From Blastococcus sp. (lineage in GTDB: Bacteria > Actinomycetota > Actinomycetes > Mycobacteriales > Geodermatophilaceae): 64,000 nucleotides of DNA. Below are positions 37,294-42,747 of the stretch, one piece after another. The notes beneath the pieces were generated by a model. That model made no database searches and was not told the origin of the DNA. It saw only the letters and a list, made by a program, of their open reading frames with translations. Both the position numbers and the translations under genes were made by a program. How positions within the stretch are numbered: position 1 is the first letter of the stretch; each line of letters opens with the position of its first letter. The stretch lies in NCBI GenBank assembly GCA_025965795.1, contig JAOPWH010000256.1, forward strand, positions 54,459-118,458, written 5' to 3'.

Positions 37294-37626
37294 TCAGGAG
37301 GCCCGTTCGACAGCCAGTTCCCCCAGCTCGGACCAGTCGCCCTGCGGGATCGTGACGTTCACGATGCGCGGAGTCTCGGCCAGGTGCGGCGGCAGCTCCT
37401 TCTGCGCCGCGAAGAAGTGGTCGGACTGCACATGAGCTCCGGCCGCGTCGTCGTCCCGGAACGCCTCGACCAGGACGTACTCGGTGGGATCGTCCAGGCT
37501 TCGCGACCACTCGAACCACAGGCAACCGGACTCGGCCTTCGTGGCCTCGGTGAACTCCCGGCTGATGTCCGGCCAGGCGTCCGCCTCCTCGGGCCGCACC
37601 CGGAACTTGGCGCAGATGAAGATCAT
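37294..37626 (-). CDS. Putative quinol monooxygenase (ABM domain)
   Basis: MIFICAKFRVRPEEADAWPDISREFTEATKAESGCLWFEWSRSLDDPTEYVLVEAFRDDDAAGAHVQSDHF. Confidence 0.88.
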   Translation of the reverse strand: MIFICAKFRVRPEEADAWPDISREFTEATKAESGCLWFEWSRSLDDPTEYVLVEAFRDDDAAGAHVQSDHFFAAQKELPPHLAETPRIVNVTIPQGDWSELGELAVERAS

Positions 37627-38156
37627 CCGACGGTCTCCGTCCCGGTCGCGGCGGCCGCCGGATGAGCGGCCGCACCCCGCATGGGAAGGGCCTTCTCGAT
37701 GACGTCGGCGAACTTCTCCGACGCGAAGGCCAGCAGGGCGCCCACCACGAGGGAAACCAGCGTCGCCCAGAAGATGCCCTGGTTGCCGAAGTACGCGGCG
37801 GCCCCGACGAAGGCCCCGGGGATGAAGGCGAGGGGGCCCCACGCCGCCTGCACGCACATGCCGAAGGCCGCCAGTGCGACGAACAGCCCGAGGACGGCAG
37901 CGGAGCCGGCGCTGACCTTGGTCGCGGCCCAGAGGATGAGCCAGCCCCACAGGACTCCGCTGGCGGTGGACGCGAGCGTCTTGGTGAGGCCGGGGACGCC
38001 GGCGCCCGCGGCGTAGAAGACCGCCCAGGCGGCGAAGCCGATCCAGACGACGAGTGGCGCCGTCCAGCTTCCGACGGAGGTGATGCTCAGGGCCACCCAC
38101 GTGAACAGACCGGCGAGCACGCCGATGGAGATGCCGAGGGCGATCAGTCGCTTCAT
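37623..38156 (-). CDS. DUF1097 domain-containing membrane protein
   Basis: Hydrophobic 177 aa, ISIGVLAGLFTWVALSI, WIGFAAWAVFYAAG, ATGA overlap with the following ABM gene. Confidence 0.8.
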   Translation of the reverse strand: MKRLIALGISIGVLAGLFTWVALSITSVGSWTAPLVVWIGFAAWAVFYAAGAGVPGLTKTLASTASGVLWGWLILWAATKVSAGSAAVLGLFVALAAFGMCVQAAWGPLAFIPGAFVGAAAYFGNQGIFWATLVSLVVGALLAFASEKFADVIEKALPMRGAAAHPAAAATGTETVG

Positions 38157-38190
38157 GGGGGGTCCTTCAGGGAGGACCGGACGGTGCCGG

Positions 38191-39216
38191 TCACGGAACG
38201 AGGATGGCGCGGCCGCGGACGCGGCCCGCCCCTAGGTCGTCGAGAGCGTCCTGGAACCTGTCGAGCGGGTACTTCGCGGTGTGCAGGGTGACCTTCTGCT
38301 GGGCAGCGAGGGCCATGAGTTCGACCAGGTCGTTGTAGGAGCCGACCAGGTTGCCGATGATGTTGACCTCGGTCGAGACGAGGTCGATGGTCGGCACGTC
38401 GATGTTCTCGCCGTAGCCGACCACGTGGTAGTCGCCGGCCCGCCGGGTCATCCGGATGCCCTCCGACGTCGAGCCGCCCTCCCCCACGAAGTCGATGACC
38501 TGCTCGGCGCCGTTCCCCCCGGTCAGCTCGAGCACCTGCTCGACCTGCCCGCCGTCGGCCACGACCCCGTGGTGGGCGCCCACCGACTCCGCGAGCTTCA
38601 CCGCGTCGGGATTGCGGTCGACGACGATGATCTCGGCCGGCGACAGCGCCGCCATCACCTGGATGCCGATGTGGCCGAGGCCGCCCGCGCCGATGAGCAC
38701 GACCCGGTCCCCTGCCCGGAGTTTCCGGGCCGCCTTGGCGACGGCGTGATAGGCGGTGAGACCGGCGTCCGCCAGCGCGGCGACGTCGGCCGGCTCCAGT
38801 GTGGCGTCGAGGCGGACGCAGCTGCGGGCCGTCGTCTTGAGGTACTCGGCGTACCCCCCGTCGGTGCTGATCCCGGGAAACGCGTTGTTCTCGCAGTGCA
38901 CGTCGTCCCCGAACCGGCAGGCACGGCACAGCCCGCAGGTGATGAGGGGATGCAGGATCACCTTGTCGCCCTCGGCGACGTTGGTGACGGCGCTGCCGAC
39001 TGCGTGCACCCAGCCGGCGTTCTCGTGCCCGATCGTGTAGGGCAGCTCGACACCGGACTTCTCCGCCCACTGCCCTTCCAGGATGTGGATGTCGGTCCGG
39101 CACACGCCGGCCCCGCCGATCCTGACGATCACGTCGTGCGGGCCGGTGATCTCCGGCGGAGGGACGTCGTCCATCTGCAGGTTCTGGTGGTACCCGACCA
39201 CGCGGACGGCCTTCAT
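38191..39216 (-). CDS. Zinc-dependent alcohol dehydrogenase (MDR; propane/alkane operon type)
   Basis: GHENAGWVHAVGSAV, CGLCRACRFGDDVHCENNAFPGISTDGGYAEY, GAGGLGHIGIQVMAAL. Confidence 0.92.
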   Translation of the reverse strand: MKAVRVVGYHQNLQMDDVPPPEITGPHDVIVRIGGAGVCRTDIHILEGQWAEKSGVELPYTIGHENAGWVHAVGSAVTNVAEGDKVILHPLITCGLCRACRFGDDVHCENNAFPGISTDGGYAEYLKTTARSCVRLDATLEPADVAALADAGLTAYHAVAKAARKLRAGDRVVLIGAGGLGHIGIQVMAALSPAEIIVVDRNPDAVKLAESVGAHHGVVADGGQVEQVLELTGGNGAEQVIDFVGEGGSTSEGIRMTRRAGDYHVVGYGENIDVPTIDLVSTEVNIIGNLVGSYNDLVELMALAAQQKVTLHTAKYPLDRFQDALDDLGAGRVRGRAILVP

Positions 39217-41032: not shown

Positions 41033-41120
41033 CTGAGGCCCTCCGGGCAGTCGCTGTGACAGCGGTCACGCTGCTGGCAGGGACGCTAGGCCCGTCGTGC
41101 ATCCCCGGGACCCGGCCGGA

Positions 41121-41137
41121 TGTCTCACTTTGGGACG
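41121..41137. promoter_or_regulatory. Imperfect inverted repeat TGTCTCA-CTT-TGGGACG in the divergent region, candidate activator site
   Basis: Arms TGTCnCA / TGnGAC located between amidohydrolase and the plausible regulator starts (41170 or 41239). Confidence 0.4.
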
Positions 41138-41238
41138 CGCGACCGACTCCCGCAGCCGCGCGGCGCCGTATGGTCCAGGTCACATCCGGACCGCTCGCAG
41201 GGCGGTTCCCGCCGACGACCCGGTACGAGGGGGCGAGT

Positions 41239-42747
41239 GTGGTGGACGATCCCCGGGCCGGAACCCCGACCTCCCTGGCACCGCTCGCGGACGCCGACCT
41301 GGCAGTACGGTCCGCTGCGCCGCGGCTGCGGGCCTCGTGGCGGCGCAGCGAGCAGTACGGTCTCTCCCACGACGAGGTGGCCCCGGTGTTCACCGGATCG
41401 CTGGACACCGGGTCGCTGCTCTACGAGTGCGCCTCGCGGGTGCTCACCGACCTGCAGGCCACGATCGCGAACGAGCCGGTCAGCCTGATGGTGGCCGACC
41501 GCGAGGGACTCGTCCTCGCCCGTCTCGGCGGCGATCCGACCATCACGGCGTCGCTCGATCGTGTCCACCTTGCCCCGGGGTTCTTCTACGCCGAGCGCAA
41601 CGCCGGCACCAACGGGCTGGGCCTCTCCCTCGCCGACCGGGCGCCGTCTCTGGTGCGGGCCGCCGACCACTACTGCACCGAGCTGCGCGGCTACACCTGC
41701 GCGGCCGCGCCGGTGCTGGATCCGGTCTCGGGAGACCTGGCCGGAAGCATCAACCTGACGACGTGGTCGGATTCCTCGTCCGACCTCCTGCTGGCGCTCG
41801 CCCAGGCCGCGGCGGGCGCGACCAGCGGCCTGATGCTGGTCCGCTCGACCGGACGAGCGGTGCGCGCGGCGCCGCGCGGACAGGTCGTCCACGTCGTGGG
41901 CGGACACCTCTCGCGCGATACCGGCGATCCGTGCGCATCCGCCGCCTGGCGCGCAGCGGTCACCGATGTCGGAACCGCGACGGCGGCCGGCCGGGTCGTG
42001 GCGGTGGTGGGCGAGGAGGGCGCGGGCAAGTCCACACTGGCCGCCCTGGCCCGCCGACGACTGGTCGCGCGCCAGCGCATCCTCCATGCCCGAGCACCGG
42101 AAGCCGCCGACGTCGCGGCGTGGTTGGAGCTGTGGACCCCCGCTCTGCGGGACGAGGACGCCTGCGTCCTCGTGTCGGGCCTGCATCGGTTGCCCGCCTG
42201 GGCCGCCGGGGATCTCGCGCACACCCTCGAGGGCGTCCACCACACCGGCGGTCGACCTCAGCCCTTCGCATTCACCGCGCCGGACTTCGCGGCGATCCCC
42301 GAGCAGCTGGCCCCGCTCGTCGACACCGTGGTCGAAGCGCCCCCGCTGCGTCACCGGGCGGAGGACATCCTGCCGTTGGCGCACCACTTCGCCCACGAGG
42401 AACGACACCGCACGCTGGCCTTCACCCCACGAGCCGCACGATCGCTGGCCGGCTACTCCTGGCCGGGCAACGTCGCTCAGCTCCGGCGCGTCGTCCGCGA
42501 GGCGGCATCCCGCGCCGACGTCGTCGACGTCCAGCACCTGGCACCCGAGGTCCTGGACGGCGGCCGCCGGTCGCTGACCCGCCTCGAGACCCTCGAACGG
42601 GACGAGATCGTGCGGTGCCTCACCGAGCCGAACACCACGATCACCCGGGCGGCCGAGGATCTGGGCATCGGCCGCGCCACGCTGTACCGGAAGATCGCGC
42701 AGTACGACATCACGATCCCCGGGCGCTCAGCGGGACCGCATGGCTGA
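41239..42747 (+). CDS. GAF / degenerate AAA+ / Fis-type HTH transcriptional activator (MimR/AcoR-like)
   Basis: LRASWRRSEQYGLS, GAF region, NAGTNGLG, WPGNVAQLRRVVREA, ITRAAEDLGIGRATLYRKIAQY; start uncertain (ATG 41170 possible); no GAFTGA motif. Confidence 0.88.
   Translation: MVDDPRAGTPTSLAPLADADLAVRSAAPRLRASWRRSEQYGLSHDEVAPVFTGSLDTGSLLYECASRVLTDLQATIANEPVSLMVADREGLVLARLGGDPTITASLDRVHLAPGFFYAERNAGTNGLGLSLADRAPSLVRAADHYCTELRGYTCAAAPVLDPVSGDLAGSINLTTWSDSSSDLLLALAQAAAGATSGLMLVRSTGRAVRAAPRGQVVHVVGGHLSRDTGDPCASAAWRAAVTDVGTATAAGRVVAVVGEEGAGKSTLAALARRRLVARQRILHARAPEAADVAAWLELWTPALRDEDACVLVSGLHRLPAWAAGDLAHTLEGVHHTGGRPQPFAFTAPDFAAIPEQLAPLVDTVVEAPPLRHRAEDILPLAHHFAHEERHRTLAFTPRAARSLAGYSWPGNVAQLRRVVREAASRADVVDVQHLAPEVLDGGRRSLTRLETLERDEIVRCLTEPNTTITRAAEDLGIGRATLYRKIAQYDITIPGRSAGPHG

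Follow-up and report, generated by a model that had tools for sequence, protein, structure and literature searches.

In the group 5 soluble di-iron monooxygenase (SDIMO) operons prm and mim of Gordonia, Rhodococcus and Mycobacterium, genes for an amidohydrolase (AMH), a DUF59 protein and an alcohol dehydrogenase (ADH) follow each other in this order. As the same trio is present in Blastococcus sp. on contig JAOPWH010000256.1, we were interested whether the genes there are one half of a broken propane monooxygenase operon, as considered in an earlier note on this DNA, or a unit in its own right. The window, meaning the whole stretch of 64 kb that was analysed, belongs to an assembly of 4.0 Mb in 317 contigs that is 88% complete. 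All genes named in the note were found at their places by Pfam and open reading frame (ORF) evidence (Table 1), and hydroxylase, reductase, coupling protein and GroEL are indeed missing near the module. The genes are genuine and form an intact module. Of the ATGA overlaps described for its junctions, those of DUF59/ADH (39213-39216) and of DUF1097/ABM (37623-37626) were recovered, but AMH and DUF59 are joined at 39989 by a 1-nt overlap, TGATG, instead. Comparison with related loci led to the conclusion that the module is one conserved unit, separated long ago from the prm/mim operon and inherited without the monooxygenase; the window carries a complete and ancient module, distinct from this operon yet related to it, and not half of a broken one.

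Gene content and distribution

A scan with the DUF59 protein gathered 80 related loci, whose genes were mapped by tblastn, and SDIMO-gene regions were fetched and mapped for comparison. AMH, DUF59 and ADH are tightly ordered in nearly all 80 loci, most of which also have a divergently encoded regulator from one and the same family, and the complete arrangement of divergent regulator and AMH-DUF59-ADH(-DUF1097)-ABM was observed in about 80 actinobacterial loci from more than 20 genera, nearly always without hydroxylase or GroEL. The recurrence of this gene order in dozens of genomes is far beyond chance. Carriers are Geodermatophilaceae, Nocardioides, relatives of Arthrobacter, Streptomyces, Amycolatopsis, Prauserella, Rhodococcus, Pseudonocardia, Kribbella and others. 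Literature searches turned up no account of the stand-alone module or its operator. In seven Streptomyces loci (L033, L039, L050, L069, L070, L072, L075) a short-chain dehydrogenase (SDR) is added before AMH, together with a different MimR-like regulator. With the prm/mim operons the module shares the AMH-DUF59-ADH order, a Fis-family regulator, ABM and a palindrome. It differs from them by the lack of hydroxylase, reductase, coupling protein and GroEL, by an HxA instead of an HxH metal motif in AMH, by an operator directly before AMH and by the optional DUF1097. The divergent GAF/Fis regulator, the HxA motif and the operator before AMH, by which the stand-alone module was delimited, are all found in the window. 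Judged from sequence, the locus has in common with group 5 SDIMO loci the accessory order and a MimR-like divergent regulator with a predicted operator, and lacks their hydroxylase and GroEL.

SDIMO genes lie close to the module in few loci. In Prauserella (L064, L066, L136) a complete mim-type operon is convergent to the module, and in Modestobacter lapidis (L141) mimABCD-GroEL, devoid of AMH-DUF59-ADH, is located 2.3 kb from it. In the SDIMO operons the same trio is mostly followed by GroEL and in several also by ABM, which stands after GroEL in L192, L194, L196 and L199. As ABM is a described component of the prm loci of M. smegmatis, RHA1, PD630 and BCP1 (PMC4428276), the ABM gene of the window is part of the inherited set and no foreign addition. 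The idea that DUF1097 and ABM took the place of a lost half had therefore to be abandoned; DUF1097 alone, seen in 13 loci with the window among them, is a patchy extra.

The genome-wide search for a prmA/mimA-like hydroxylase and a dedicated GroEL, suggested in the note, gave no match to PF02332 (di-iron hydroxylase alpha/beta) in the window or in the 88%-complete assembly, a search whose controls were also silent, and revealed one full GroEL copy and one contig-edge fragment, neither of them near the module. A second prm set elsewhere, which the note had named as evidence against its own reading, was likewise not found in the 88%-complete assembly. The PF02332 search was validated on 50 module-carrying genomes, with SDIMO subunits detected in 14 of them and none in the other 36. 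A sample of 399 genomes from the order contained 44 with a MimA-type hydroxylase, 112 with AMH and 40 with both (intersection counted by hand), leaving 72 of the 112 AMH genomes without a MimA-type hydroxylase. Stand-alone AMHs of the type found in the window (S-type, assigned by identity) occur in 46 Geodermatophilaceae genomes of this sample, a single one of which carries a MimA-type hydroxylase. SDIMO operons without an AMH of their own were found in seven genomes, and six of these have a stand-alone module elsewhere, compared with 6 of 34 genomes whose SDIMO operon has its own AMH (Fisher p=0.001; classified by hand and with shared ancestry ignored), which suggests an excess of the module in genomes with an AMH-less SDIMO operon.

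Phylogeny of the module genes

AMH and ADH of the window are 69-77% and 70-78% identical, respectively, to the copies in group-5-type SDIMO operons. Together with the gene order, the MimR-like regulator and the common operator, this upholds the homology to the accessory half of prm/mim that the earlier note had recognised. In an AMH tree of 95 rows, which was rooted on one SDIMO-operon group and gives the direction of events by inference only, a single clade (support 100/95) unites the stand-alone AMHs that have a divergent regulator. This clade is nested among SDIMO-linked lineages, and the window AMH falls within its Geodermatophilaceae branch. The stand-alone DUF59 proteins also form one clade, with a value of 98 in the SH-like approximate likelihood-ratio test (SH-aLRT). 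The note had named a position outside the monooxygenase-associated clades as evidence against its reading; the module was placed in a clade of its own that is nested within monooxygenase-associated lineages. Four AMHs from SDIMO operons are nested in the stand-alone AMH clade, suggesting the uptake of an S-type AMH by an SDIMO operon. The DUF59 genes that accompany these four are not in the stand-alone DUF59 clade.

Strict monophyly of the stand-alone ADHs was rejected due to at least one exception in the ADH tree; the ADH of L178 matches the SDIMO-operon type and looks like a replacement. Other stand-alone forms, with the order ADH-AMH-DUF59 or from distantly related lineages of the phylum, have retained HxH and are of separate origin. 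With the intact stand-alone arrangement in about 80 loci and the module in one clade, the separation from the prm/mim operon is old and the unit has been maintained.

Operator and regulator

An unbiased tally of gapped 4-mer palindromes in the regions before AMH led to TCTC-N5-GAGA, present in 60 of 77 stand-alone loci. Extended to TGTCTCA-N3-TGAGACA with up to three mismatches, the motif was found in all 77 stand-alone divergent promoters and in 2 of 390 shuffled controls. At the same threshold, 42 of 49 MimA upstream regions have it, and all 30 stretches from MimD to AMH within SDIMO operons are without it. The copy in the window has two mismatches. As 1.25 sites with up to three mismatches are expected by chance in 64 kb, this match alone is unsurprising; its weight comes from the conservation of site and place in the relatives and from its being the sole site with up to two mismatches in the 4.0-Mb assembly. 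In G457, G469, G679 and Prauserella the palindrome is present in the promoters of both the module and the SDIMO operon; the SDIMO promoters of G449, G463 and M. lapidis are without it. The recognition helices of stand-alone and MimR-like regulators are nearly identical. Another palindrome, GTGAC-N4-GTCAC, is located close to the AMH start (window 41054-41070) and virtually never occurs in shuffled controls; it was rejected as a general operator, since only 12 of the 77 stand-alone loci have it.

The longest ORF of the regulator starts at 41056. A GTG at 41239 gives a protein as long as its relatives (502 aa) and is probably the true start according to this comparison, which results in a divergent promoter region of about 200 bp. 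Scans of the locus for sigma-70 promoters and terminators gave no matches. The architecture is that of an N-terminal sensor, a degenerate AAA+ region and a Fis helix-turn-helix (HTH) domain. The description as a divergent GAF/Fis activator is thus correct for its orientation and for the Fis part (HTH_8 and AAA_lid_14 matched), while the GAF domain was not detected by Pfam. An AAA lid and a Fis HTH are common to AcoR, MimR and DhaR activators; the window regulator differs from these in that the sigma-54 activator core (PF00158) was not matched at the threshold used and the score is far below the DhaR cut-off.

Amidohydrolase, DUF59 protein and alcohol dehydrogenase

AMH ranks with the most conserved proteins of the whole analysis, with a mean column identity of 84%, and H15, H177, H179, H213 and D271 are invariant in an alignment of 28 rows. 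Its predicted structure (AlphaFold2, AF2; predicted local distance difference test, pLDDT, 86.6, with a narrow alignment behind the model) led to LigW2, 2,6-dihydroxybenzoate decarboxylase (2,6-DHBD) and LigJ as best Foldseek matches, with E-values to 2.5e-09. The predicted fold is a distorted triosephosphate isomerase (TIM) barrel, in which strands 1, 5 and 8 bear the metal ligands (H15, H177/H179, D271). With LigW, 2,6-/2,3-DHBD, ACMSD and LigJ it shares the barrel fold, one conserved strand-1 ligand and the His/Asp positions, and differs from them by a sequence identity of 12-17% in the structural matches and by a His rather than a Glu on strand 1. The metal motif on this strand reads H15-x-A17 in the window, an Ala replacing the second ligand. 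S-type stand-alone AMHs carry HxA, with one HxG, and most SDIMO-linked AMHs carry HxH; the AMH site of the module has changed from the latter motif to HxA. As an exclusive mark of stand-alone AMHs HxA was rejected, since some SDIMO operons have HxA AMHs as well. Decarboxylases of the same family bind their metal with three ligands (Glu8, His167, Asp293) or with four (Table 1 in PMC7894528). As these enzymes work with three ligands, HxA need not mean an inactive protein and, by analogy, would best be explained by a change from four to three ligands rather than by a dead site.

Two relatives lie outside this set. An Amidohydro_2 protein cut by a contig end (G000:C215, L002), whose C-terminal part has 41% identity to the window AMH, is of another amidohydrolase type, and the idea of a prm fragment was dropped. 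A very divergent AMH (43%) with HxG on a long branch (L176:7358-8350, G506) is found beside a related ADH with no detectable DUF59.

DUF59 domains of the SufT, PaaD and CIAO2 kind act in metal-cluster assembly. The DUF59 protein of the window (AF2 pLDDT 91.6) has such a domain at its N-terminus, with the DPE and Cys motifs also seen in SufT, PaaD and TM0487, and differs from these by an additional helical C-terminal domain of about 150 aa. Foldseek matched only the N-terminal domain; the C-terminal one (window 39216-39680), with a conserved GNAHFCRGLL-TRY motif, had no Pfam or PDB match. NCBIfam scores were 25.6 bits for SufT (cut-off 180) and 22.2 bits for PaaD (cut-off 202.6). AMH adjoins DUF59 in 150 of 153 cases, the exceptions being two at contig ends and one divergent outlier, and SDIMO operons without AMH either lack DUF59, too (L141, L162-L165), or have a truncated one (L166). 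In the latter (G705 C1:1802000-1819000) DUF59 is cut to 183 aa with loss of the conserved Cys. AMH and DUF59 hardly ever occur apart. ADH was kept without AMH in L165 and L166, and the pair is found without ADH in L137 and L197. L166 further has an ADH and a second MimR-like regulator on the opposite strand.

ADH has the ADH_N and ADH_zinc_N domains, the catalytic and structural zinc cysteines and the CxxCxxC..C motif of zinc-dependent medium-chain dehydrogenases/reductases, and its nearest solved structure is the alcohol dehydrogenase 1h2b, followed by the secondary ADH-A of R. ruber.

Possible function of the module

The operon is probably an inducible cassette for alcohol oxidation that is complete in itself and descends from the accessory genes of group 5 SDIMO operons. 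The GAF/Fis activator would detect a small alcohol or ketone, or a compound related to these, and bind the palindrome; using NAD+, ADH would convert a short-chain alcohol into a ketone or aldehyde, and AMH, as a metal enzyme with a decarboxylase- or hydratase-type barrel, would act on this product or a related carbonyl compound. DUF59 may load or stabilise the metal centre of AMH, and ABM, plus DUF1097 where present, may take care of a reactive by-product or of transport. A dedicated monooxygenase would not be needed, and the module may serve in trans an SDIMO lacking accessory genes. Such a cassette is favoured by the kinship of ADH to NAD-dependent enzymes including ADH-A, by Prauserella, where an ExaC acetaldehyde dehydrogenase adjoins the module, and by Actinomycetospora, where Adh1 and the amidohydrolase of the Mim cluster are abundant on acetone and 2-hydroxyisobutyrate (2-HIBA), as is an Adh1-related protein from outside the cluster (PMC7176365). 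The Mim cluster of Actinomycetospora chiangmaiensis differs from the module by including MimABCD and MimG (PMC7176365), and no ExaC member scored above the cut-off in the host genome. More tentatively, AMH and the long DUF59 protein could be a so far undescribed metabolic unit of their own, for C-C cleavage or hydration of the ketone or aldehyde made by ADH and with its own metallocentre loader, which propane monooxygenase operons have borrowed and which mostly resides in bacteria unable to oxidise alkanes via an SDIMO.

Several points weigh against the alcohol-oxidation cassette. The chemistry of AMH and DUF59 as well as the substrate and the inducer of the module are inferred, and AMH showed no significant match to any solved enzyme among PDB sequences. 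With an assembly that is 88% complete, a monooxygenase may sit in the missing part, and the excess of the module in genomes with AMH-less SDIMO operons could mean that its true role is still tied to an SDIMO. In addition, the palindrome is missing in seven of seven checked Streptomyces loci with the added SDR and the different regulator, so that this regulation is not universal.

Among the alternatives, a role of AMH and DUF59 as a non-metabolic maturation pair for a metallocentre, with the zinc ADH or an unlinked oxygenase as client, is doubtful. It would agree with the structural match of DUF59 to metal-cluster assembly domains and with the tightness of the pair, and HxA could mark a loss of catalysis, but the strong conservation of AMH and of its five invariant residues is as expected for a working site, and pair and ADH each occur without the other. 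A set that acts mainly in trans, supplying AMH, DUF59 and ADH to a monooxygenase encoded elsewhere under a common operator, is unlikely: as much as the six of seven genomes with AMH-less SDIMO operons, the palindrome in both promoters in several of those genomes and in Prauserella, and the move of S-type AMH genes into some SDIMO operons speak for it, most carriers, and with them the 88%-complete host assembly, are without an SDIMO, and it cannot be the general or present role. The proposal that the module serves a different oxygenase found no backing, as no linked oxygenase other than a group-5-type SDIMO was seen among the relatives examined. A recently decayed or relocated prm/mim operon, whose hydroxylase, reductase, coupling protein and GroEL were lost or moved, would explain genes homologous to the accessory half with SDIMO genes neither adjacent nor in the assembly, but is very improbable in view of intact ORFs, retained overlaps and operator, old stand-alone clades of both AMH and DUF59, and the same arrangement in the 46 Geodermatophilaceae genomes and many other families. 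Least credible is ABM as the module's own cofactor-free oxygenase in place of the di-iron enzyme, since ABM, although coupled to the operon here and present in 33 of 80 related loci, also stands beside complete SDIMO operons (PMC4428276) and is absent from many stand-alone modules.

Neighbouring genes

Convergent to the operon, a DUF1348/SnoaL-like protein is encoded at window 36731-37195. A tryptophan 2,3-dioxygenase (36640-35771) scores slightly below the curated cut-off. On the other side (window 43868-47392) a protein of 1174 aa is encoded that is probably secreted; reading by eye revealed in it PKD/fibronectin-like repeats as well as a HEFGHALGLGH motif of metalloprotease-like character.

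Table 1. Module genes and predicted operator, with positions in the 64 kb window.
Feature	Position	Strand	Evidence or remark
AMH, Amidohydro_2 (ACMSD/LigW-like fold), 347 aa	39989..41032	-	PF04909, E=1e-51
DUF59 protein, 258 aa	39213..39989	-	PF01883, E=2e-17
ADH, zinc-dependent medium-chain alcohol dehydrogenase, 341 aa	38191..39216	-	PF08240/PF00107
DUF1097 membrane protein, optional module member	37623..38156	-	PF06496, E=4e-27
ABM-domain protein (YgiN/LsrG-like)	37294..37626	-	PF03992, E=4e-22
Divergent AcoR/MimR-type regulator, 502 aa	41239..42747	+	HTH_8, AAA_lid_14 (Pfam); best NCBIfam match DhaR
Predicted palindromic operator TGTCTCACTTTGGGACG, consensus YGTCTCA-N3-TGAGACR	41121..41137		about 90-105 bp upstream of AMH

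Significance

The roles of the amidohydrolase and the DUF59 protein in propane and acetone monooxygenase operons are apparently not established in the literature searched, and the presence of a complex oxygenase makes them difficult to study. Their stand-alone versions in SDIMO-free bacteria open both proteins to study without the oxygenase, and the HxH/HxA split offers a clean natural contrast within an enzyme active site. The common operator is a predicted binding site for MimR-type activators in both systems. For annotation, alkane oxidation should not be inferred from the AMH, DUF59 and ADH accessory genes alone.

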